DNA of 64,000 bases from positions 23,027,839 to 23,091,838 of the forward strand of contig CM049316.1 in assembly GCA_026874595.1 (NCBI GenBank), read 5' to 3'. The position numbers and the translations under genes were made by a program. Positions 10,986 through 37,930 of this stretch are shown piece by piece (the first letter of the stretch is position 1; the number at the start of each line of letters is the position of its first letter). The notes under the pieces were generated by a model. The model made no database searches and was not told where the DNA came from. It saw only the letters and a list, made by a program, of their open reading frames with translations. Origin of the DNA: Sipunculus nudus. Lineage: Eukaryota; Annelida; Sipuncula; Golfingiida; Sipunculidae.

Positions 10986-12589
10986 TGTCATATACGAACA
11001 TTCTCATCGTTTGTAATATGAGTTTGTAGTTGTTTATCTCATGTATTAACTATATTTTTAGAAATAAAAGAACATACGGAAATTCTAAATTTATTTTTGG
11101 TCATTATTATTTAAGATTGATCTAAATAATTATTTAATAATCTCGTCTACACAGTTTAACATTACAGATAGAATTCTTAAAGTGATCTTAATAAGGATCA
11201 GTGTTTCTGTCCTATTTTTTGTGATATGTTCAAGTGAGGATCTTTAGTTAATACACGTCAGATATTGGAATAGGCCACTTTTAAGAAATACATCAATTAA
11301 AGCATAAAAGTGAAGGTGTGATGTATTCTTTTTTAAAACCTAGCCTTGGAATTCAGTATACCTTAGAGGTTTTCAAGCATATATCCATTAAAGAGTAATT
11401 TCAAACCAGGCAAAGTATTTTCCCGAAGCTTGCAAAATAAAAAAAAAGAAAACTTGTTCTATTGATTTAAACGATCTGTTATGGTTGTCCCCAATGCCTT
11501 TCCATTCTGTCGGACATAGTAGTTATTTAGCATCACATACATACGAGCTGTTCACCTACAGTTTCTGAAGAATTTAAGTGTTTTCTGGCTTACTCGTCGT
11601 ACATTTTTATGCACTCTCGGTAGCTCCTCTTGAGAAAATATGTTATAACGCCGCTGTGACTGATGTATGTGTTTGTTTATCTATAGGCTGTTAGTCAAAA
11701 CGACAGTGTTGACAAAAGGAAAAACCATGTATTCTGAGGTGGTTGTTTGCATATGTTTGGAAGTTCAAAGGTCACTTTTTTCAAAGTGCCTTTGTACATC
11801 TCTGGTTTGTCTGACTTGCTACCAGATGGCATTGCTCAACGTGTTTGGATTATTTTGCCGGGCCCCACAGTATATAAACACATTTATATAAACAAAACAA
11901 TTCGCGCGGCGTGATAGGCGTTTTCTGGCCTATTATTATAAAAGGTTTAAGGAGTTATATTTAATTTATACACGTCATATATTGGAATGGGGCCTCTAAC
12001 ATATCCATGGAACGGAGAAGAACACTGCTTTCGTTTTCCCTATTACGCTGCTATAGACGGGTACACTTTGACACAGGTTTTAACACAGTAGATCTAACAG
12101 AAACAAAGATAGTAAGTCATTTGGAAAAACTGCGTGTATTTAGTTCAAAGCCTGATCCAGCAATTTTTTTATGAAGTTATTATTATGACCATAAGGTAAT
12201 TCCATAACAAAGGGGGCTGCCGCATCAAGACTCGACGTCAAAAGTGACTTGACCTAACTTCTATGCTTTTCATCATCGATGCTGTAAAGGTCGATGATTG
12301 CCTCCCTCAGGAAACGTCAGTTTGTCGTTTTACACACAGTACTTAACCATGGCATTAAAGCAGTGTCATAGTAATATACCAGTGTCCTTTTTCGCCTGTG
12401 GAAAGCAAATTTTAAAACGGTACTGAAAAGAAAATGGTATGGTGTCACAACACATTTCAAACGTTTCGTTTGACAAAGAGGGAACAAGTTAAAGAGGTTT
12501 CATTTATGGTATATATATCTTGTGTTGGTTGAATGGGTTTGAGCAATTGTATATGAATTTTTTTCCCAAGTTAATTTATTTCGTTAAAT
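10497..12589. other. Intergenic with two (TA)n tracts
   Basis: (TA)n or (TATG)n tracts lie at about 10785-10842 and 10947-10977. The remainder is AT-rich with no recognised gene. The plus-strand frame at 11667-11891 shows no domain. Confidence 0.5.
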
Positions 12590-13275
12590 ACACATGGCAA
12601 ATCACCATGCGAAATATGCAACAGCCTTCCAGGTGCCCATCTACGATTTTAATTTGTTTAAAGAACCTACAAATGTCTGACAAACACATTCAAAATATGT
12701 CCGCTATATTTCCTGAAGTTTCATGGATATATTTTTCTTCTAAAGGGTACCAAACGCCAATTTATTCACTTGCTAGTCAATTTTAAGCATTCTTTACATT
12801 TTTGAAGGCAATATCTCAGCATAGAATGCATGTATAAAGCTGACACTGTAAAGGTACTACACATGAAAACAACTTTTAATGAAACTGTTAGCTTATTTTC
12901 ATTGTTTAAGCATGACAAATTCATTTTCGGAAATCTTCATAAAACTTTATTGAGCACTCGTGAGAATGTTGTCCAAGGAATATTCGTCACACTGTAGAAC
13001 TTACATTTTCAGGTAAATGGCTTTCTTAAAATTAAAATTACTCATAAGGTTCTCTGAGCTATAACAGCATTACTAAAAGGGTAAGACGGGTAAAATAGAC
13101 CATCAGACTCAGCAGGATTTGACAAGGTGGGAAACCACTCAGCCACTAAAATTTTGTTTAAGGAGAGGCTATCTATATGCCAACTTAGTGTCCAAATCTT
13201 TTAATCTCACTCAATTACTTTCACAGTTGAAAAATATTGTAAACTTTTTGGTTATTTATATACAAAAATCAGGAA
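12590..13275 (+). repeat. Left arm of long inverted repeat
   Basis: Read against the reverse complement of about 16510-17255, this arm aligns along almost its whole length with modest divergence. Anchors include GGCAAATCACC, TTTCATRGATATATTTTT, ATAAAACTTTATTGAG, GTTCTCTGAG, AAGGAGAGGCTATCTATATG and TTCACAGTTGAAAAA. It forms one terminus of the DNA transposon described separately. Confidence 0.85.
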
Positions 13276-13837
13276 ATATAAGTATTTATCTATAAGTCTA
13301 AGTTTTATGTGTTATATGCTTTGTTTTTGTCAATATTACATTGCAAAGCGGTATGTGGCAATATTAAAATACAAAAGGTTCACATTAGTAAAAATGATTT
13401 TATTATCTAAAATATGATTTATTTGTAGTAAATAAGATTTCAATACACAAGCAAGGGAAAAAAGCATAGATATTTAACATCTTTTTGTAATTGACTTTCT
13501 CTCACTAAACATCAAGTCAGCACTGTTCAAAAATATTTCAGCATGCTAAGCAGTCTGGTGTCACCTTTTCACATACAAGTCCATTGTTATATTCAAGAGC
13601 CTGTAAGAGCAGTACACACAAGAGAAGTGTTCTAATGCAAATAATCACAGTATCTGAATGACAAAATCACATATTATAATTATGGAAGCGAATCCAGGTA
13701 ATTCGGAAAAGTGTAGTATTGGTTACATGTTACATCAGGACTGTCATAAGACAGCGTTTGTTAGAAAATGTGGGTTATTGCTGATACGTGATTTGTGAGG
13801 AAGAGACAGACAACATTAAATTTGCAATGGAGAGCAG

Positions 13838-15660
13838 ATGTGCATGTATGTTAAGCATTCTGATACTATTTGTTTTCACCGTGAGAGAGTTTACATCTCT
13901 TGCTATGAAGGTTTACAGAGGCACTGTTGTGACGCTTTTCAACGCCACAAGAAACATGTGCTTAGTGAGTATAAATTTCAATTAAATCATAAATTAATCT
14001 GTGATACCATAGATCGTATACTCGAAAGGATGGTCAATCAGAAAATATTTCAATTATTACATAGCTCGGACATTTTATGAATTTTACTTAAAAAACAGTA
14101 TTAAACTAATACCTGTTTTATTTGATCAAATTAAGTAATGTCTTGTTTTAAATAATTCTATTATTGTTTAAATAATCACAACAATGATAATTATTTTACA
14201 CTCCTGTCGAGTAATTGGATTTCAATCGTGAAAAGAATAAAACATCTTACTTTTTTACTCTATGAGATTTTTGTTTCAGGTGCCCTTAAATGTGTGAGTG
14301 AAGAATTTGCTGAAAATTTTGGATTAAAACCTGGTCAGATGCTCGGTCAAAGGTGTGAAAATAAATATTTAAGAAAATTTGAAGGAAACTTATCCTAAGA
14401 TTTAAGTGCAGGAGAATTAGAGATCAAGGACTCATGAAGGACACAGTGAATGACAGTTCACAGCTACTTGGTAATATCCCCTTTAAATTCTGCTAGTGAG
14501 AGGGAAAAGAGAAGTACAAGGTATAAAAAGAGCTTCAAAATCAAAGTTAACCTACATTCTTGACATGGAGAGAAAAAAGAACTAACTTCAACATGGGAGG
14601 GGTCCGAGGATCTGGGCATCCTGCTTGATCTTCTGAAGAATAAGCGTCAACAAGCAACACGGAGAGAAAAGATCGAAATTATAGCACTTGTCACAGCTAG
14701 TTGGACTATTCAGAAGGTTACAGAAGTTTTTTTGTGTATCCAAGTATCTAGCAAAAGTCAAAAAGTCAAAAAGCCCAGGAAGGAGAAAAGTGTACTGGTA
14801 GATACAGTGGATATAGTAGGAAGACAATTAGAATAGGGCGCTTCTGTCATACCAGTAATCAGTGATTGCAGATAACTTCTGAAAAAAAAGTATGTAAAAC
14901 AACCAATGGGACCTTTATGTTACGTTAAAGAATGACGGGCACTATGTCTGATAGATGTGTTTTCTGTTATTTTGTTGAAGCAGATGATGTCATTAACTTT
15001 AAGCAGTGGGCACATACTGACCCTACAACCCTTATCTCTCTTTGACTTCCACTGAATGACTTCATAACGGAAGTCAGTACAGCATTTCATGAACCTCGAC
15101 ACCATCATCTTGTTTCAATAGCTCGAGCAAATTTCTTGAATGAATTTAAGGTAAACCCTCAAGATGCTGCTGATATTGTGCTGTTAGACTTTAAAGAAAA
15201 TTACAGTTTCATAATTCAAGATGCTGTGCAAGTCCATTTCTGGGACAACAGCCAGGCCACTTTGTATCCCTTTGTGATACACTACAAAGGTGCTGATTGT
15301 ATTGAAACTTCTGCTTCCTGTGTCGTATCAGATTGTCTCAAACATAATACAGATGCTGTTCGTGCATTTATTACCTCACTTATTCAACATATAAAAGAAG
15401 CTCACCCTAAGATTCACATATTTTTTTTTATTTTAGTGATGGAGCAGCCAGCCAATAAAAAAATGACAAGAACTTTTGAAATTTATGTCGCAATGAGCAG
15501 GATTTGGACTTCAGGCCGAGTGGCACTTTTTTTTTGCAACGAGCCACGGGAAAAGTCCATGCGATAGAATTTGAGACACAGTCAAGCGCTTGGTAGCATG
15601 ACTAGCCTGCATTCAACTACAGAGAACCAGATTCGCTCTGTTGAGGATATGTATAAGTTT
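13838..15660 (+). pseudogene. Transposase-like gene remnant, multi-exon, broken
   Basis: An upstream exon ends at 13964 (CCDAFQRHKKHVL, donor GTGAGT). It joins in phase to an exon at 14280 (ALKCVSEEF...LKPGQMLGQRC), a Cys-rich N-terminal region, followed by decayed sequence. The core resumes at about 14950 and has an open stretch from 15136: LLDFKENYSF, VHFWDNSQATLYPF, then after a frameshift at a T run near 15421 a block reading FSDGAASQ. After further breaks come NLCRNEQDLDF and, in a third frame, FATSHGKSPCD and TVKRLVA. The acidic and His positions (D in LLDF, SDG, SHGK) would suit a DDE-type nuclease, but that is inference. Stops lie near 15052, in the SDG block and after TVKRLVA. An AATAAA near 16545 could be the old poly(A) signal. 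Confidence 0.72.
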
Positions 15661-16509
15661 TCAGTTTGTTATGTACAGGGAATTTAACAGATTACTACAG
15701 CATTTGCTTAAGAACAGCGGTTCAGCTCCATAAAAAAAATGTTGCAAGTACATCACTCTTATTAACCTCTTTCTGCAGTGAAAAAAGAAATAAGGAGAGT
15801 GTCTGGTCATTAAATGTTCACACCAATTCACATTTGCTTTGAGTAAAAACAGCAAGCAGTCCAGCAGAGACATGAGAAAGCAGCCATTCCGTCTGCCAAC
15901 CTTAACTCCTCTAAACCTGAAAATATATTGCATGTATCCATAATCACTTCTGGTACATTGGTAGCATCAGAAAGAAGAATGATGATGAGTAGGACGAAAC
16001 AAAGTATGGCCTCCAGAAAATAGCAAAGACCAATGCTAGATGCCATTTCAGCATGTCATGTGTACAGTAGAAGCACCACTATTGGCTTACAGTAGTCGCA
16101 GAAGCGGTAAGCTTGACGAAAAAGTCCACAAAAGAGTGAAAGATCTTTTTAAGAAATTCAGATTTTAAAACTAGTGCATTTGTTATGAGAGAGCTTTTTT
16201 GACGATATAACTGATGCATGCATATAAACATGAATCATAGACACATAGGGCATATATAAAATGTTTGACAGTGTTTTTTTATTATTTGGTGTTTGACACT
16301 TAAACTGAGGCCACATTGATTAATTATAACCATGGTTTCTGCAAACTTTATAGAATTTAAATAATATATAACATGTAATTTTATGCTAGTCAAGTAATTG
16401 AATTCTTTCATTCTTAACTAATTGGACTGCTGGTTATGGTATTTTGTAGTTGTGCACCCCTCACACTAGAACTGACAGATAGAAAGGATGCAACATGGAG
16501 GACTAAACA

Positions 16510-17255
16510 GTCATTTTCTCTAATTTTTGTATATAAATAAAGTTGATGATTTTTTCAACTGTGAATTCATTTGAGTCAGAAAATTATATAATTGTATAAA
16601 AATATTTAATACAAAGTTGTCATATAGATAGCCTCTCCTTATAGAGAAAATTGAAGAGGATGTGTAGTTTCCCACGTGGTCAAATCCTACTGCGCCTTAA
16701 AGTCTATATTTGCCGTTTTACCGTCACATCCAATTTTAATGCTACAAAAACTCAGAGAACCTTTGACTGGTGACCATTATTTATTATTTTCAGAAAGTCA
16801 TTTGCAAGAATTTGCATATTCCACAAAAAGAAGCATATTCCTTGGATAACATTCTCACAAGACCTCAATAAAGTTTTATGACAATTTCCAAAAGTGAATA
16901 AACAAATAAATTTGTGGTGCTTTAACAATAAAAATAAACTCACAGTTCCATTTTTTAAAGGTTGTTTTCATATGTATGGTATCCATAAAGTGTACAAACA
17001 ACATTTAGAGTTATAAATGCAAGCTATGCTATGATATTGCTTTCCAAAAATGCTTCAAACTGACTCGCGAGTGAAAAAATGGGGTTTGGTACACTTTAGA
17101 TAAAAATATATCTATGAAACTACTGGGAATAAAAGTACACATATTTTGCATATGTTCCACAAACATCTATAGCAACTTGTAAAACAATTTTAATAAAATC
17201 TGAAATGGTCACTCGGGAAGGTTTTGAAATATGGGTGATTTGGCAAGGAATGACC
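16510..17255 (-). repeat. Right arm of long inverted repeat
   Basis: This is the partner of 12590-13275 in inverted orientation. The inner boundary is near 16510 (ATTTTTGTATATAAAT, matching the left arm in reverse complement). The outer boundary is near 17255, beyond which similarity fades. Confidence 0.85.
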
Positions 17256-17285
17256 CACATTATCTTTTTAAAAAAATTAGAGAAG

Positions 17286-17304
17286 TGCCCCTAGATGGCA
17301 GCAC
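17286..17304 (+). promoter_or_regulatory. CTCF-like core motif
   Basis: The sequence GTGCCCCTAGATGGCAGCAC contains TAGATGGCAGC, close to the conserved CTCF zinc-finger core known from animals. It lies just outside the transposon's right arm. Binding is not shown by sequence alone. Confidence 0.3.
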
Positions 17305-17546
17305 AAATAAACATACGGTACATTAAGTACTCAACCTCCACGCAGGGCCATGATCATTTGGGTCATATGAATCCTGCGGATTTAAGCGTACTTGACCTGA
17401 ATAAGTGACCCTGTTGCATTTTCATTAGGGCGAAAAACATGATTTCTTGGCCCCCGTTTGTTATTATACTAGAACCCCCCACCCCACCCCCATTCAAATT
17501 TCAGTCATCTGATATTTGACAAAAATTTAACACATAAGGAGCAATC

Positions 17547-17670
17547 ATCTATATATTAATAGCGTAAGGCGATTTTTGTGATTTTCCGTATCTCCTCTGA
17601 TACTACCGTACGGTTTGCCATGATTTCTGACATACATATGCTCAGGGTTTGTCCGAAGAGATTCCACCCA
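17547..17670 (+). repeat. Direct repeat, copy 1 of a ~120-bp sequence
   Basis: This aligns to 19424-19540 in the same orientation: both begin ATCTATATATTAATAGCGTAA, contain ACGGTTTGCC and ACATACATATGCTC, and end near ATTCCACC. It may be the end of a repeated element. The intervening 1.75 kb includes a separate inverted-repeat element. Confidence 0.7.
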
Positions 17671-18005
17671 CTTTTATTTGCAATAGCTGCGTATTACGTG
17701 CATAATTATTAATTTTAATATTTGCTCCCCCGCGGGCGCCTCTTTTCTTTGTGTCTTCGGGCCTGGTAACACAATGGCCACAGAGTGTTTGATGGCGGGA
17801 CAGAGTTTTTCTCCGGGGGCCCTATCTGGGCTATTCTTAAATTTGCGGTGACCGGCCCGAAATAATCCCCATTGGTGATCCCTTCTCAAAAGGCAACCTC
17901 CGCGCAGCGAAAAGGTCTATTGTGCACAAGGAGATCTCGCGTTAGGAAAATGCTTAAAAGGGGGATCTTTCAAAGAATGAAAATTTTCCGAGCGGTAGTG
18001 AATGC

Positions 18006-21896: not shown

Positions 21897-22494
21897 AATA
21901 AATGCATGCTTTATGTCAGTTATAGTTATATAGAGTAATAGTGTCATACTCCGTACTTTCCATTATTTTTTTTTACAAAAAGCTGACAGTATAGTGCTGA
22001 CTTAACTAATATAATATTTTGCTGGTCCATATGTAATATATATGTAGAGTATGTATTAAAAAGGCACATTTTGTGAAATTTAGAATTTATATATACTTTA
22101 GGAATTGAACTAAAGTCGATTAGCATATCAGCTGCTTATATATGCTTATGAGTAAACAATTGGGAATGTGTGAAAGCACAAACAACTCATGAGATGTCAT
22201 ATCAGAGGATATGTATATTCTTAGATTAAAGGTAGTCAAGCGATTAACTGTTTATACACTAGTATGGTTATGAGCAAACAAATAATTAGTTTGTGAATAC
22301 CGTGATCGCACTATTGTGTATTACCGAAGATGACCGTGATAGCACAAAGATGTGAGACCCAAACACCATGACTAACATAATGAACGCCAGAAAGCTCACC
22401 GTGATCATGCTGTGATCCGGGACTCAGACTAGTGGTGACCACACAATGTTGCTCGCCACAAGCTAACCATGCCCACACAATGATGGACGCGACA

Positions 22495-23684
22495 AGCTCA
22501 TCGTAATCACACTACGGTGTATTATCGAAGCTCATCGTGATCACACTACGGTGTATTATCGAAGCTCATCGTGATCACACTATGGTGTATAATCGAAGCT
22601 CATCGTAATCACACTATGGTGTATTATCGAAGCTCATCATAATCACACTATGGTGTATTATCGAAGCTCATCGTAATCACACTATGGTGTATTATCGAAG
22701 CTAATCGTAATCACACTATGGTGAATTACCGAAGCTCATCGTGATCACACTATGGTGTATTATCGAAGCTCATCGTGATCACACTACGGTGTATTATCGA
22801 AGCTCATCGTAATCACACTATGGTGTATTATCGAAGCTCATCGTAATCACACTATGGTGTATTATCGAAGCTCATCGTAATCACACTATGGCGTATTATC
22901 GAAGCTCATCGTAATCACACTATGGTGAATTACCGAAGCTCATCGTAATCACACTATGGTGTATTACCGAAGCTCATCGTAATCACACTATGGTGTATTA
23001 TCGCAGCTCATCGTAATCACACGATGGTGTATTATCGAAGCTCATCGTAATCACACGATGGCGTATTATCGAAGCTCATCGTAATCACACTACGGTGTAT
23101 TATCGAAGCTCATCGTAATCACACTATGGTGTATTATCGAAGCTCATCGTAATCACACAATGGTGTATTATCGAAGCTCATCGTAATCACACTATGGTGT
23201 ATTATCGAAGCTCATCGTAATCACACTATGGTGTATTATCGAAGCTCATCGTAATCACACTACGGTGTATTATCGAAGCTCATCGTAATCACACTACGGT
23301 GTATTATCGAAGCTCATCGTAATCACACAATGGTGTATTATCGAAGCTCATCGTAATCACACAATGGTGTATTATCGAAGCTCATCGTAATCACACTATG
23401 GTGTATTATCGAAGCTCATCGTAATCACACTATGGTGTATTATCGAAGCTCATCGTAATCACACTACGGTGTATTATCGAAGCTCATCGTAATCACACTA
23501 TGGTGTATTATCGAAGCTCATCGTAATCACACAATGGTGTATTATCGAAGCTCATCGTAATCACACAATGGTGTACTATCGAAGCTCATCGTAATCACAC
23601 AATGGTGTATTATCGAAGCTCATCGTAATCACACAATGGTGTATTATTAAAGCTCATCGTAATCAAACAATGGTGTTTTATCGA
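22495..23684 (+). repeat. Homogeneous 34-bp tandem array, 35 units
   Basis: The unit starts AGCTCATCGTAATCACACTA and ends GGTGTATTATCGA. From the first unit at 22495 to the start of the 35th at 23651 is 1156 bases, exactly 34 x 34, so there is no net length drift. Variation is concentrated at a few positions: GTAATC or GTGATC, and CACTATGG, CACTACGG, CACAATGG or CACGATGG. The 36th unit is partial and runs into diverged monomers. Confidence 0.92.
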
Positions 23685-26600
23685 AGCTCATCGTGATCGC
23701 TCTATGATGTTCGACCTAGACTTATCGCGACCATACTATGATGAACGGACAAGCTTACCGTGATCAAACTGGTGTATTATCGGAGCTCATCGTGATCACA
23801 TTATTTGGGACCCATACTCGCCGTGACCACATATTGATTAACGCCACAAGATCATCGTGATCACACTATAATGTGGAACCAATACTCTTGTTGACCACAC
23901 AATGATGAACGCCACAAGCTCACCGTCACCGCACAATGAAGGACGCCACAAGCTCACAGTAATCACACTATGATGTATTCCCGGAGCTCACCGTGATTAC
24001 ACAATGTTGAACACCACAGGATCCTTATGATCACACAATGATGTCGGGCCCAGACTCGCCTGACCAAACAGTGAAGAACAACACAAGCTCACCGTGATCA
24101 CAATGTGATGTAGGACCCAGACTCGTGTTGACCACACAATGGTGAACGTCACAAGCTCACCGTCACCACACAATGATGGACACCACAAGCTCACCATAAT
24201 AAGCCCAGGGTGTATTACCGGAGCTCACCGTGATCACACTATAATGAACGCCACAGGATCACTATGATCACACTTTGATGTTGGACCCAGGCTCGCCGTG
24301 ACCACACAATGATGTTCGATCTAGACTCACCGCGAACACACTATGAAGAACGGCACAAGGTCATCGTGATCACATTTTGTGGGACGCAGATTCACCATTA
24401 CCACATTATGATGGAAATCACGAGCTCAACGAGATAACACTATGACGTGCAAACGTCACAAGCTCACCGTCACCACACAATGATGCCCATGGACACCACA
24501 AGCTCACGGTAATAAGACTATGGTGTATTACCAGAGCTCATCGTGATCACACTATGATGAACGCCACAAGATCTCTATGATCACACTGTGATGTTGGACC
24601 CAGACTCGTCGTGACCACACAATGATGAACGTCACAGTTCACCGTGATTACACCATGTTGAACGGCACAAGCTCACCATGGTCACATTTTGTGGGACGCA
24701 GACTCACCATGACCACACAATGATGGAAATCAAAAGCTCAACGAGATTAAGGTATATTGATTAACGCAACAGGCTCTTCGTGATCACACTATAATGGAAA
24801 CCACAAGCTCATCGTAATAAGACTATGGTGTAATACCGGAGCTCACCTTGATCAAACAATGATGGTCGACCCAGAGTCACCGCGACCACACTATGATGTA
24901 TTACTGGAGCTCACCTAAATCATACATTGATACTTGATCTTGAATCACCGTGACCACTCTATGATGAACGCCACAAGCTCACCGTGATCACATTATGGTG
25001 TATTATCTAAGCACACCGTGACCACATTACGTTGGACCCTGAATCGTGGTGACCAAAAAATGTTGAAAGCCACGAGTTCACCATGATTACAATATGGTGA
25101 AATACCGAAGCTCATTAAAATAACACAATAATGTTCGACCTGACTGACCGCAACTACACTACGATGAACGGCACAAGCTCACCGTGATCACATTTTGTGG
25201 GACGTAGACCCACCGTGACCACCCAATGATGGAAATCACAAACTCGCTGAAATCACGGTATGATGTGAAACCCAGACTCGTGATGACGACACAATTATGA
25301 ACGCCACAAGCTCACCATCACCACGCAATGATGGACACAACAAGCTTACCGTAATCAGATGATGATATATTACCGGAGCTCACCGTGATCACACTATGAT
25401 AAACACCACAAGATCACTATGGTCACAGTTTGTTGTTGGACCCAGACTCGCCGTAACCACACAAATATGGACGCCACAAGCTCACCGTGATCACACCATG
25501 ATGAACGAAACAAGCTTACTGTGATCACGATTTGTGGGACGCAGACTCACCATGACCCAACAATAATGGAAATCACAAGATCACCGAGATCTAGGTATAT
25601 TGATTGACGCCACAAGCTCATTGTGGTCACACTATGATGTGGAACCAATACTCTTGTTCACCACACAATGATTAACGCCACAAGCTCATTGTTACCACAC
25701 TGTGATGAACGCCACAAGATCACTATCATCACAATATGACGTTTAGCCCAGACTCGCCAAGAACACTGTGAAGAACGACACAAGCTCAGCGTTATCACAA
25801 TGTGATGTGGGACCCGGACTCCCCGTGACGACACAATGATGAACGCCTCAAGCTCACTGTGATAACACTAGGGTGTATTGCCTAAGCTCACCTTGATCAC
25901 AAAATGATTTTCGACCTAGACTCACCGCGACCACACTATTATGAACGGCACAAGTTCACCGTGATCACCTTTTGTGGGATGCTGACTCACTATGACCACA
26001 CAATGATAAAAATCACAAGCTCACCGAGATCACGGTATGATGTGGAACCTGGTCACACTATGGTCTTTTGCCGAAGCTCACCTTGATCAAACAATGAGGT
26101 TAGACCCAAAGTCACCGTGAGCACACTATGATGTATCACCGGAGCTCACCTAAATCACACAATAAGCTTGATCTAGAATCACCGTGACCACTCTATAATT
26201 AACCCCACAAGCTCACCATGATCACATTATGGTGTTTTATTTAAGCTTATCGTGAAAACATTATGTGGGACCAAGACTCGCCGTGACCAAACAATGTTGA
26301 AAGCCACAAGCTCACCGTGATCACAATATGGTGTAGTACCGAAGCTCATTGAGATAACACAATAATGTTCGACCTAGGATCACCACGACCACACTATGAT
26401 GAACGGCACACGCTCACCGTGATCACATTTTGTGGGACGCAGACTGACCATAACCACACAATGATGGAAATTACAAGCTCACCGAGATCACGGTTGATGT
26501 GAAACCCAGACTCGTGTTGATGACACAATGATGAACGCCACAAGCTCACCGTCACCACGCAATCATGGACACCACAAGCTCATCGTAATAAGACTATGAT

Positions 26601-27147
26601 GTATTACCGGAACACACAATGATCCCACAATGATGAACGCCACAAGCTCACCGTGATCAAACTATGGTCTATTGCCGAAGCTCACCTAGATCAAACAATG
26701 ATGCTCGACCCAGAGTCACCGCGACCACACTATGATGTATTACCGATGCCTACCTTAATCACACAATCATACTTGACCTAGAATCACCGTAATCACAATG
26801 ATGAACGCCACAAGCTCACTGTGATACACTGGGGTGTATTGCCTAAGCTCACCTTGATCACAAAATGATTTTCGACGTAGACTCACTGCGACCATACTAT
26901 GATGAACGCCACAAGCTCACCTTCACCTCACAACCATGGACGCCATAAGCTCACCGTAATCACACTATGGTGTGTTACCGGAGCTCACAGTGATCACACT
27001 ATGATGAACGCATAAGATCACTATGATCACACTGTGATGTTGGACCAAGACTCGCCATGACCACACTATGATGAACGCCACCGTGATTACGCAATGGTGT
27101 ATTGCCAAAGCTCATCTTGTACACACAATTATTTTCGACCTAGACTC

Positions 27148-27345
27148 AAAGCGACCACACTGTGATGATCGTCACAGTTCACCGTGATCACACTGTGATG
27201 ATCGTCACAGTTCACCGTGATCACACTGTGATGATCGTCACAGTTCACCGTGATCACACTGTGATGATCGTCACAGTTCACCGTGATCACACTGTGATGA
27301 TCGTCACAGTTCACCGTGATCACACTGTGATGATCGTCACAGCTC
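27148..27345 (+). repeat. 33-bp sub-array, first copy (6 units)
   Basis: Units start ACCGTGATCACACTGTGATG and end ATCGTCACAGTTC. Five full units start at 27181, 27214, 27247, 27280 and 27313, with a variant unit before them. Because 33 is divisible by three, open frames of 73-75 residues arise on both strands. They are by-products. Confidence 0.93.
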
Positions 27346-27678
27346 ACCGTTATCACATTTTGTGGGACGCAGACTCACCGTGATCACATTTTGTGGGACG
27401 CAGACTCACCGTGACTACACAATAATGGAAATCACAAGCTTCACACTTAGATCACACTTAGATATGGGACCAAGTCTTATCCGCTAATTTTTTTTTAAAA
27501 ATAAGTTCAGGTTGGTCTTACAATGGTGTAAGACCAAAGCTCACCGTGATCACATAAAGATGTAGAGAAATAAAAAGTGTCAATAAAAGTAAGTTCAAGC
27601 TCACACAAGTAAGCCTATGTAAGGACACAAATCAGAGTGATCACACCGTTATCACACAATTATTTTTGACCTAGACTA

Positions 27679-27876
27679 AAAGCGACCACACTGTGATGAT
27701 CGTCACAGTTCACCGTGATCACACTGTGATGATCGTCACAGTTCACCGTGATCACACTGTGATGATCGTCACAGTTCACCGTGATCACACTGTGATGATC
27801 GTCACAGTTCACCGTGATCACACTGTGATGATCGTCACAGTTCACCGTGATCACACTGTGATGATCGTCACAGCTC
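27679..27876 (+). repeat. 33-bp sub-array, second copy (6 units)
   Basis: Identical in design to the array 531 bases upstream, and part of the same duplication. Confidence 0.93.
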
Positions 27877-28190
27877 ACCGTGATCACATTTTGTGGGACG
27901 CAGACTCACCGTGATCACATTTTGTGGGACGCAGACTCACCGTGACTACACAATAATGGAAATCACAAGCTTCACACTTAGATCACACTTAGATATGGGA
28001 CCAAGTCTTATCCGCTGATTTTTTTTAAAAATAAGTTCAGGTTGGTCTTACAATGGTGTAAGACCAAAGCTCACCGTGATCACATAAAGATGTAGCGAAA
28101 TAAAAAGTGTCAATAAAAGTAAGTCCAAGCTCACACAAGTAAGTCTATGTAAGGACACAAATCAGAGTGATCACACCGTCATGTAAGATA

Positions 28191-31975: not shown

Positions 31976-32199
31976 GTCTAAGTGTAAGTCCGCTTACAAA
32001 CCCTTCGAGTCCACGGACAAGTCCGAGTCCTTTGGGTTCAAGGCGACGGTCAAGTCTTAGTCCTTTGTTTTTGAGTCCACGGTCAAGTCAGAGTCCTTTG
32101 GGTTTGAGTCCAAGGTCAAGTCAGAGTCCTTTGGGTTTAAGTCCACGGTCAAGTCCGAGTTCTTTTGGTTCGAGACCACGGTCAGGTCAGAGTCTTTTG

Positions 32200-34495
32200 T
32201 GTTTGAGTCCACGGTCAAGTCAGAGTCTTTTGGGTTCGAGTCCACGGTCAAGTCAGAGTCCTTTGGGTTTGAGTCAACGGTCAAGTCAGAGTCCTTTGGG
32301 TTCGAGACCACGGTCAAGTCAGAGTCCTTTGGGTTTGAGTCCACGGTCAAGTCAAAGTCCTTTGGGTTTGAGTCCACGGTCAAGTCAGAGTCCTTTGGTT
32401 TTGAGTCCGCTGTCAAGTCCGAGTCCTTTGGGTTTGAGTCCACGGTCAAGTCAGAGTCCTTTGGGTTTGAGTCCAAGGTCAAGTCAAAGTCCTTTGGGTT
32501 TGAGTCCACGGTCAAGTCAGAGTCCTTTGGGTTTGAGTCCAAGATCAAGTCAGAGTCCTTTGGGTTTGAGTCCAAGATCAAGTCAGAGTCCTTTGGGTTT
32601 GAGTCCAAGGTCAAGTCATAGTCCTTTGGGTTTGAGTCCACGGTCAAGTCAGAGTCCTTTGGGTTTGAGTCCACGGTCAAGTCAGAGTTCTTTTGGGTTC
32701 GGGTCAACGGACAAGTCAGAGTCCTTTGGGTTTGAGTCCACTGTCAAGTCAGAGTCCTTTGGGTTTGAGTCCACGGTCAAGTCAGAGTTCTTTGGGTTCG
32801 AGTCCACGGTCAAGTCAGAGTACTTTGTGTTTGAGTCTACGGTCAAGTCAGAGTTCTTTTGGGTTCGAGTCCACGGACAAGTCCGAGTTCTTTTGGTTCG
32901 AGACCACTGTCAAGTTAGAGTTCTTTGGGTTTTAGTCCACGGTCAAGTCAGAGTCCTTTGGGTTTGAGTCCCCGGTCAAGTCAGAGTCCTGTGGGTTTGA
33001 GTCCACGGTCAAGTCAGAGTCCTTTGGGTTTGAGTCCACTGTCAAGTCAGAGTCCTTTGGGTTTGAGTCCACGGTCAAGTCAGAGTCCTTTGGGTTTGAG
33101 TCCAAGGTCAAGTCTTAGTCCTTTGTTTTTGAGTCCACGGTCAAGTCTTAGTCCTTTGTTTTTGAGTCCACGGTCAAGTCAGAGTCCTTTGGGTTTGAGT
33201 CCACGGTCAAGTCAGAGTTCTTTGGGTTCGAGTCCACGGTCAAGTCAGAGTACTTTGTGTTTGATTCTACGGTCAAGTCAGAGTTCTTTTGGGTTCGAGT
33301 CCACGGACAAGTCCGAGTTCTTTTGGTTCGAGACCACTGTCAAGTTAGAGTTCTTTGGGTTTGAGTCCACGGTCAAGTCAGAGTCCTTTGGGTTTGAGTC
33401 CCCGGTCAAGTCAGAGTCCTGTGGGTTTGAGTCCACGGTCAAGTCAGAGTCCTTTGGGTTTGAGTCCACGGTCAAGTCAGAGTCCTTTGGGTTTGAGTCC
33501 ACGGTCAAGTCAGAGTCTTTTGGGTTCGAGTCCACGGTCAAGTCAGAGTCCTTTGGGTTTGAGTCAACGGTCAAGTCAGAGTCCTTTGGGTTCGAGACCA
33601 CGGTCAAGTCAGAGTCCTTTGGGTTTGAGTCCACGGTCAAGTCAAAGTCCTTTGGGTTTGAGTCCACGGTCAAGTCAGAGTCCTTTGGTTTTGAGTCCGC
33701 TGTCAAGTCCGAGTCCTTTGGGTTTGAGTCCACGGTCAAGTCAGAGTCCTTTGGGTTTGAGTCCAAGGTCAAGTCAAAGTCCTTTGGGTTTGAGTCCACG
33801 GTCAAGTCAGAGTCCTTTGGGTTTGAGTCCAAGATCAAGTCAGAGTCCTTTGGGTTTGAGTCAACGGTCAAGTCAGAGTCCTTTGGGTTTGAGTCCAAGG
33901 TCAAGTCATAGTCCTTTGGGTTTGAGTCCACGGTCAAGTCAGAGTCCTTTGGGTTTGAGTCCACGGTCAAGTCAGAGTTCTTTTGGGTTCGGGTCAACGG
34001 ACAAGTCAGAGTCCTTTGGGTTTGAGTCCACTGTCAAGTCAGAGTCCTTTGGGTTTGAGTCCACGGTCAAGTCAGAGTTCTTTGGGTTCGAGTCCACGGT
34101 CAAGTCAGAGTACTTTGTGTTTGAGTCTACGGTCAAGTCAGAGTTCTTTTGGGTTCGAGTCCACGGACAAGTCCGAGTTCTTTTGGTTCGAGACCACTGT
34201 CAAGTTAGAGTTCTTTGGGTTTTAGTCCACGGTCAAGTCAGAGTCCTTTGGGTTTGAGTCCCCGGTCAAGTCAGAGTCCTGTGGGTTTGAGTCCACGGTC
34301 AAGTCAGAGTCCTTTGGGTTTGAGTCCACTGTCAAGTCAGAGTCCTTTGGGTTTGAGTCCACGGTCAAGTCAGAGTCCTTTGGGTTTGAGTCCAAGGTCA
34401 AGTCTTAGTCCTTTGTTTTTGAGTCCACGGTCAAGTCTTAGTCCTTTGTTTTTGAGTCCACGGTCAAGTCAGAGTCCTTTGGGTTTGAGTCCAAG
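32200..34495 (+). repeat. Higher-order repeat at 1,290-bp offset
   Basis: Rare variants recur 1,290 bases apart: the GGGTCAACGGACAAG unit near 32700 and 33990, the TTTTAGTCC stop-creating unit near 32930 and 34220, and paired TCTTAGTCC units near 33115 and 34405. The similarity covers about 32200-33205 and 33490-34495. The offset is 39 units plus three bases, so a block of units was copied together. Confidence 0.85.
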
Positions 34496-34789
34496 GTCAA
34501 GTCAAAGTCCTTTGGGTTTAAGTCCACGGTCAAGTCCGAGTTCTTTTGGTTCGAGACCACGGTCAGGTCAGAGTCTTTTGGGTTTGAGTCCACGGTCAAG
34601 TCAGAGTCCTTTGGGTTCGAGACCACGGTCAAGTCAGAGTTCTTTGTGTTTGAGTCCACGGTCAAGTCAGAGTCCTTTGGGTTTGAGTCCACGGTCAAGT
34701 CAGAGTCCTTTGGGTTCGAGTCCACGGTCAAGTCAGAGTCCTTTGGGTTTGAGTCTAAGGTCAAGTCAGAGTCCTTTGGGTTTAAGTCC

Positions 34790-36010
34790 ATGGACAAGTC
34801 CGATTTCTTTTGGTTCGAGACCACGGTCAAATTAGAGTTCTTTGGGTTTGAGTCCCAGGTCAAGTCAGAGTCCTTTGGGTTCGAGTCCACGGTCAAGTCA
34901 GAGTACTTTTGGTTCGAGTCCACGGTCAAGTCAGAGTCTTTTGGTTTTGAGTCCACGGTCAAGTCAGAGTCCTTTGGGTTCGAGATCACGGTCAGGTCAG
35001 AGTCTTTTGGGTTTGAGTCCACGGTCAAGTCAGAGTCCTTTGGGTTCGAGACCACGGTCAAGTCAGAGTTCTTTGTGTTCGAGTCCACGGTCAAGTCAGA
35101 GTCCTTTGGGTTTGAGTCCAAGGTCAAGTCAGAGTTCTTCGGGTTTGAGTCCAAGGTCAAGTCAGAGTCCTTTGGGTTTAAGTCCACGGACAAGTCCGAG
35201 TTCTTTTGGTTCGAGACCACGGTCAAATTAGAGTTCTTTGGGTTTGAGTCCCCGGTCAAGTCAGAGTCCTTTGGGTTCGAGTCCACGGTCAAGTCAGAGT
35301 ACTTTTGGTTCGAGTCCACGGTCAAGTCAGAGTCCTTTGGGTTTGAGTCCACGGTCAAGTCAGAGTCTTTTGGGTTTGAGTCCACGGTCAAGTCAGAGTC
35401 CTTTGGGTTCGAGACCACAGTCAAGTCAGAGTTCTTTGGTTTCGAGTCCACGGTCAAGTCAGAGTCCTTTGGGTTTGAGTCCAAGGTCAAGTCAGAGTCC
35501 TTTGCTTTCGATACCACGGACAAGTCCGAGTTCTTTTGGTTCGAGACCACGGTCAAATTAGAGTTCTTTGGGTTTGAGTCCACGGTCAAGTCAGAGTCCT
35601 TTGGGTTCGAGTCCACGGTCAGGTCAGAGTACTTTTGGTTCGAGTCCACGGTCAAGTCAGAGTCCTTTGGGTTTGAGTCCACGGTCAAGTCAGAGTCCTT
35701 TGGGTTCGAGACCACGGTCAGGTCAGAGTCTTTTGGGTTTGAGTCCACTGTCAAGTCAGAGTCCTTTGGGTTCGAGACCACGGTCAAGTCAGAGTTCTTT
35801 GTGTTTGAGTCCACGGTCAAGTCAGAGTCCTTTGGGTTTGAGTCCACGGTCAAGTCAGACTCCTTTGGGTTCGAGTCCACGGTCAAGTCAGAGTCCTTTG
35901 GGTTTGAGTCCAAGGTCAAGTCAGAGTCCTTTGCTTTCGATACCACGGACAAGTCCGATTTCTTTTGGTTCGAGACCACGGTCAAATTAGAGTTCTTTGG
36001 GTTTGAGTCC
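34790..36010 (+). repeat. Shorter higher-order repeats, 10-13 units each
   Basis: A marker unit containing AAATTAGAGTTCTTTGGG recurs near 34830, 35226, 35556 and 35985. The spacings are 396, 330 and 429 bases, exactly 12, 10 and 13 units of 33. This is a second generation of block duplication, different from the 1,290-bp one upstream. Confidence 0.85.
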
Positions 36011-36193
36011 ACGGTCAAGTCAGAGTCCTTTGGGTTCGAGTCCACGGTCAAGTCAGAGTACTTTTGGTTCGAGTCCACGGTCAAGTCAGAGTCCTTTGGG
36101 TTGGAGTCCACGGTCTTCGAGTTCTTGGATTCAATTACAAGCCAATCGTCTTCGAGTCCGAGTCTCCTACAGCTCTAGGAGAAATCAGAGTTC

Positions 36194-36415: not shown

Positions 36416-36970
36416 TTGTCTGTCAAAAGGTCATATATGAGACTCTGAAGTGTGTTCGGCAATCTGAACGGCCAACTTTGTGACCGAGGATCTTTCACTT
36501 GAATTCGAGATGAACTGGGCCTGCCATATCCGTACCTTTGAGTCCGTGACCAAATCCTCGGTCCTGGACACCCGAGCCCAAGTCCAAATCCCAAAGCGGT
36601 TAATCTTTCTAAAAAGTTACGACACAATTTCCTTTCTCGTTGAGATTTGCAGTCATGTTTTCGAAATGCACGTGTCGCCACTCTGACATCCCGTAGGTTC
36701 AGATTGATTAATTAACTGCCGCTGTATTTTGCTTGCGCAGGCCAACTCAGGTACCACATTTTCAGTTATCTCGTGCACATTTGTGGTTTGGTTGGAAGAA
36801 CTCTGTCTCCTCTTGTGGTCTTCTTTAGTTAAGTAACCTTAACATACATACATTATACAACATTATAATACACCAACGATCGTTTCCCGCATAATTATTT
36901 TTTTCAGAAAATGTCAACAAACAAAGGCGATATACGCATACTCTTTAATTACTAAACACCCTGGGGGGGG

Positions 36971-37240
36971 CGATATACGAGTTATCTTTTATCACTCAAC
37001 CCATTGATTATTGTCAATATACGAGTAAACCTTTATCACTTCACACACTGATAATAGGCGATTTACGATTTATCATTTAGTACTCAAACCCTTGTTGTAT
37101 ATTGGGATATACGAGTAATCTGATATCACTCGAAACACTGAGTATGGTCGATATACGAGTAATCTTGATTGCTTGATACACTGAGTATTGGCGATATACG
37201 AGTAATCCTTTACGGTATAGCGTCATATCGACCCTTTGGC
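36971..37240. repeat. 44-bp minisatellite, block 1 (6 units)
   Basis: The motif CGATATACGAG, or a close variant, recurs at about 36971, 37015, 37059, 37105, 37149 and 37192, a period of 43-46 bases. It is followed in each unit by TAATCTTTATCACTC-like and ACACTGAGTATGG-like segments. Confidence 0.8.
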
Positions 37241-37810
37241 ATTACTACCAGATTACTGGCGCCAGAGTGTCTTTACATCTAAGTCTGAGGAACGCATTAT
37301 AGGGCCTTATGAAGATGCAAATATTTTCGTCAATTTCTGACAACGCTTAATGGCTTACAGGTACACTGTCAATCAACATAAACGAAACCAATCGTTAGCA
37401 TTTTTTGTGTAAAAGGTAAAAAGGTTCCAAACATGGAGAAAAAAGTTCCGTTCTAACCCAGCATATTGGTTAATCCATCGACATGTTTGTTGAATTTATG
37501 ACCACATGAACACAAGCTTAGCCCCCACGGGTTACATGGAGCTTGCGATATAGGAAATGATCCGTGTCCATGGAGATGGTGTTTCAGTTTAGATTGTAAG
37601 CTCACATGTATCCTGTGGTGTTAATCTATCATTCTTAGCATAATATTGAGATTATAGGCCGTTTGCAACAATATGAATGCAACATATGCAAGACCACTGC
37701 CATACTTTCTTAGATATTACTTGTATCACGACTCGAGTAGGCTTACCAGCCCAATTATGCGATTGCTTACAGAGTCGGGTTGTCACGACTACACATGGTA
37801 TGGGGTGGGG

Positions 37811-37930
37811 GGATATATGAGTTATCTTTTATTTCTCAACACACTTTGTATGGGCGATATACGAGTAATCTCATATATCTCAACAGAATAAGTATGGGCG
37901 ATGTACGAGTTGTCATATAACTCTTAACCA
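37811..37930. repeat. 44-bp minisatellite, block 2 (3 units)
   Basis: The same unit as the block about 600 bases upstream, at about 37811, 37855 and 37899 with exact 44-base spacing. The 570 bases between the blocks are not repeated. Confidence 0.8.

Follow-up and report, generated by a model that had tools for sequence, protein, structure and literature searches.

The stretch of DNA analysed here (the window, 64,000 nucleotides of the Sipunculus nudus genome) contains two long arms in inverted orientation that enclose the pieces of a broken transposase gene. The left arm occupies positions 12593 to 13288 on the plus strand and the right arm positions 16504 to 17256 on the minus strand, and the two are approximately 69% identical over approximately 700 bp. 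By blastn, 12646-13288 pairs with 16504-17194 (reverse complement) in an alignment of 702 columns with 68.7% identity (E 1.8e-69), which scores 248 bits compared to at most 29.7 bits in 100 block shuffles of the control, and shorter ungapped pieces of the arms were recovered independently of this alignment. The terminal homology extends outward to 12593 on the left and to 17256 on the right. Direct repeat families of at least 20 bp were looked for in window 12000-18000 and none was found; the arms are inverted. Inward of the left arm lies an interior spacer (13300 to 13874, plus strand). A further copy in the genome (L040, contig C14) has arm and spacer in colinear arrangement, and the region 12653-13874 aligns to it by blastn at 68.6%.

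The right arm ends in GGGTCATTCCTTGCCAAATCACC, read inward from 17256, a terminus that is common to other copies in the genome. The left arm has lost its outermost bases (approximately 9-12): the terminus is present without its first nine bases, with CATGGCAAATCACC starting at 12593. Directly outside the right arm lies ACAT (17257 to 17260, no strand assigned), where the 4-bp duplications of related copies lead one to expect the right half of a target duplication. ACAT is present at 12592-12595 as well, where the left copy of the duplication is not readable with certainty; its position there is weakly compatible with a small deletion between CAT repeats. The limits given by the first-pass annotation (12590-17255) agree with these re-measured ones to within 3 bases, the true outer left tip having been lost, and its description of DNA transposon remains with long inverted termini is borne out, as arms of about 0.7 kb do enclose a broken transposase gene.

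The pieces of this gene lie in order but in shifted frames, with a core at 15046-15598 and weaker similarity that begins at 14564 and reaches 15989, all on the plus strand. The upstream piece (14564 to 14833) matches a frame of the related locus L004 by blastp (E 5e-5) and is followed by a piece containing DDVINFKQWAHTD (14929 to 15042), which matches frames of L003, L004, and L010 (E 0.004-0.014). The main remnant (15046 to 15432) carries the first catalytic-type aspartate in LLDFKENY (codon 15187-15189), and the open frame 15046-15567 contains both DFKENY and WDNSQATLYPF. The second aspartate (codon 15438-15440) lies within FSDGAASQ (15432 to 15455), in a shifted frame that then runs into a stop; tblastn matches of relatives cover 15429-15593, this stretch included. 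A third frame (15497 to 15598, one internal stop) runs from FGLQAEWHFFFATSHGKSPCD to TVKRLVA, with FATSHGKSPCD at 15533-15565 and TVKRLVA at 15578-15598, and holds the third aspartate (codon 15563-15565); it is 50-55% identical to four relatives by tblastn and 70% identical to L003 by blastp. A probable C-terminal piece (YIACIHNHFWYIGSIRKKNDD, 15921 to 15989) matches a frame of L039 (E 6.7e-5), with weak tblastn matches to L014 (0.010) and L005 (0.023). The codons of all three aspartates are thus present, and the copy in the window is dead. Proteins with such blocks probably recur in invertebrates, as the first-pass annotation remarks. The four blocks that had been picked out from the letters of the window (WDNSQATLYPF, FSDGAASQ, FATSHGKSPCD, and TVKRLVA) are confirmed, and between 15046 and 15595 the window is matched in this order by the proteins of its relatives elsewhere in the genome.

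These relatives were found by searching the whole genome (1.43 Gb, 153 contigs) with a 129-aa piece from the window, scoring the best 150 of 314 candidates. At least 29 matches were obtained, the piece itself included; of these, seven fall within open frames longer than 600 aa (two pairs among the seven being near-identical copies), and six contain internal stops. The nearest relatives among the scored matches, L003, L004, and L010, are all broken remnants. A second whole-genome search, with a frame of L003, gave 150 matches from the best 150 of 525 candidates scored. Of these, 27 (L003 itself included) extend over the front part of the frame and were for this reason taken as true relatives; the other 123 fall on its tail. 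This tail (G000 C12:35608971-35609327) matches at least 123 places at 47-93% identity and is probably a dispersed repeat that inserted into the old gene.

In an alignment of the window piece with 11 of the 28 other matches, to which it is 20-27% identical, the first aspartate (that of DFSENY) is present in 12 of 12 sequences and the second is nearly invariant; at the third, L012 has a serine and L007 stops short of the position. A separate alignment of five proteins has all three (D388, D474, and D515 of L016) invariant in five of five. The conservation of the aspartates in LLDF and SDG, predicted in the first-pass annotation, is therefore borne out by the alignments of relatives, which add a third in HGKxPxD, and the transposase of the relatives appears, by alignment, to have a DDD-type residue set. 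A single-sequence fold model of the 129 aa reached a mean pLDDT of 43.3, too poor for a fold search, and comparison with the PDB by sequence gave no convincing match (E of at least 0.29 for the window piece and at least 0.043 for the profile of the first alignment). No Pfam family lies above its cut-off in the window piece or in six relatives, and no transposase match was seen in these six.

Target duplications could be read in related copies. An exact 4-bp duplication flanks six of the nine copies with both ends readable (TTAG, ATAA, AATT, ATTT, GGCT, and AGCC), and three have no exact one: L012 (TAAC/TATA), L058 (AAAC/ATAT), and L060 (AAAC/AAGC). Since the flanks were visible while the ends were being placed, each matching duplication carries slightly less weight than its chance of 1 in 256 would suggest; outside this count stand family A (L045 and L046, right end unplaceable) and the copy at L019 (both ends missing). 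Family B (L047 and L048) consists of two copies that are 99.7% identical over 4.76 kb, compared to 4.66 kb for the element in the window, with an intact gene, 19-bp inverted ends GGGGCATTTCACGGTATTT, and the duplications TTAG and ATAA. Family F (L049 and L050) starts with GGGTTGTTT, has 17-bp ends and the duplications AATT and ATTT, and includes an open frame of 955 aa in L030. In family C (L012 and L018, genes broken), the inverted match is 14 bp long and lies four bases inside the ends, with a GGCT duplication at L018 and none at L012. The inverted ends of these three families measure only 14-19 bp, and long arms are thus not a trait of the whole group.

A pattern search with the window-type terminus (up to 3 mismatches) found 20 sites, including the window's own, compared to none for the reversed control. 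Three copies with this terminus have both ends readable, and one of the three has an exact 4-bp duplication: L063, a 1,180-bp copy with inverted ends of approximately 255 bp that are 86% alike, flanked by AGCC; the other two are short, old copies (L058, 237 bp; L060, 280 bp). L063-L066 share the terminus GGGTCATTCCATGCCAAATCAACCAATTTC and a terminal block that is 79-91% alike; the other three copies of this group were fetched with one end only within the stretch taken, and a transposase match was looked for in L063-L066 and not found. The literature matches listed for the terminal 10-mer concerned unrelated subjects and were dropped.

Long inverted ends are also what a Mutator-like element (MULE), or another superfamily with such ends, would display, and relatively long terminal inverted repeats are usual in MULEs according to the part of the published account we draw on (PMC10741241). 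However, the same account gives MULEs duplications of 7-12 bp, whereas the related copies here have 4-bp duplications or no exact one, with lengths of 1-10 bp tried for seven copies, and the Pfam transposase match is missing in the six relatives; we consider this assignment hardly credible. KolobokP, in the portion of its description used here (PMC9587614), likewise has animal hosts and long terminal repeats (approximately 450 or 660 bp), but these are direct, while the arms in the window are inverted.

Whether the arms and the gene belong together can be judged from their other occurrences. Arm searches found 10 places outside the window, and neither the gene nor a second long arm is present at any of the five that were fetched at length. 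Arms were also looked for at the closest relative of the gene (L003 in L039) and not found, and the window is the only place seen with both. Such observations are what would be expected if an old inverted repeat or foldback element had been invaded by an unrelated copy of the transposase gene. Against such chance nesting, an arm in L040 is still joined to approximately 575 bp of interior, arranged as in the window, and the length suits an autonomous element. In addition, the ends of family B, whose elements carry an intact gene for a protein of this family, are similar to the arm terminus: over the initial 13 bases of the family B terminus (GGGGCATTTCACG), 10 agree, counted by eye. We therefore regard the nesting as very unlikely and infer that the arms and the gene belong to a single element. 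Near the gene remnant L010, a 15-of-21 match to the terminus was considered as a further link and rejected, as the adjoining sequence has no arm match and such matches are at chance level (approximately 0.6 times per 51 kb). The first-pass annotation had named arms occurring independently of the gene throughout the genome as one observation that would speak against its reading. This is part of what was found, and the gene-less places count against a tight link between arms and gene, yet they fit non-autonomous and truncated old copies. It had also pointed to intact relatives and their target duplications as a check; 4-bp duplications were read, but a second locus with both arms and gene was not found.

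Taken as one element, the remains in the window are probably those of a cut-and-paste DNA transposon of the Sola kind, old and now dead. Sola elements are described as having a DDD transposase, 4-bp target duplications, a size of mostly 2-9 kb, and inverted repeats of 11-1124 bp (PMC10741241, in the part concerned with them). The same traits recur here: the DDD residues in the alignments of relatives, where catalysis is predicted; the 4-bp duplication in the six related copies, the window's own not being readable; the size; and inverted repeats that, at approximately 0.7 kb in the window, approximately 255 bp in L063, and 19, 17, and 14 bp in families B, F, and C, fall in the published range. 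The likeness to Sola1, Sola2, and Sola3 is one of published description (PMC10741241, in part) and not of protein sequence comparison, so that the name is one we infer. Sola2 elements of amoebozoa (DFa and PPa families) have AT-rich 4-bp duplications, as do family F and one copy of family B, but their inverted ends are 12-21 bp long, compared to the arms of approximately 0.7 kb in the window (PMC3627910, in the passages on these families). Sola transposons have been reported in bivalves (PMC10294476, in the passage concerned). The earlier view that no named superfamily fits the protein and its termini was not supported, as the duplications, the DDD residues, and the repeat range together match the Sola description as far as the cited account gives it (PMC10741241).

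The alternative is that these DDD transposons form an unnamed superfamily of their own, or a fourth Sola-like group, marked by 4-bp duplications and, in this lineage, by ends that start with GGG and by long inverted arms. Several negative results would suit it: the six relatives fall below the Pfam cut-offs, no NCBIfam or PHROGs family matches the four relatives compared, the relatives were not found in the viral contigs (five scans) or prokaryote genomes (one scan) searched, and the conserved-motif strings are absent from the literature searched. However, Sola may itself be without a Pfam model, and little can be concluded from the missing Pfam match. The structural traits compared also fall inside the Sola description as far as it is set out in PMC10741241, and we judge a separate group unlikely. 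Similarly doubtful is its evolutionary extension, in which a transposase lineage outside Sola1-3 with 4-bp duplications would include one animal subfamily whose arms grew from less than 20 bp to approximately 0.7 kb, leaving arm-only copies behind. Most likely, the element is a mildly unusual member of a known group and not a new class.

For a Sola-like element, a DDD transposase whose active site is predicted, with its fold, to be of the RNase H type would bind the GGGTCATTCCATGCC ends within the long arms, excise the element, and join it to a target cut with a 4-base stagger, giving the 4-bp duplication; the proposed cut-and-join chemistry is modelled on that of DDD/E transposases. Probably a trait of the lineage, the long arms may provide additional, putative binding sites, and copies that consist of arms without the gene would be derivatives, either non-autonomous or truncated. 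On the assumption that the two arms were the same when the element inserted, their 31% divergence makes the copy in the window very old. However, the arms of L063 are 86% alike; arms may thus be unequal at the outset or diverge rapidly, which makes this age a loose bound.

Elsewhere, the window contains several tandem repeats. A large tandem region at 22494-27945 has a 34-bp unit in 35.8 copies (95% matches) together with diverged units of 31 to 313 bp. At 32007-36115, 124 copies of a 33-bp unit form an array that has several open frames on each of the two strands, the longest of 578 aa, and is either a minisatellite or a repeat-protein gene. Two separate blocks of 44-bp repeats, starting with GGCGATATACGAG, lie at 36969-37212 and 37808-37910.

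Intact copies of the transposase family are present in this genome, and in the comparisons made the family matched no Pfam, NCBIfam, or PHROG model; annotation will therefore probably leave its genes without a name. With a model that combines the protein with its termini and the 4-bp footprint, annotators could recognise such genes as transposons. Furthermore, inverted ends that range from less than 20 bp to approximately 0.7 kb within one transposase group offer a small comparative case for the origin of long arms.
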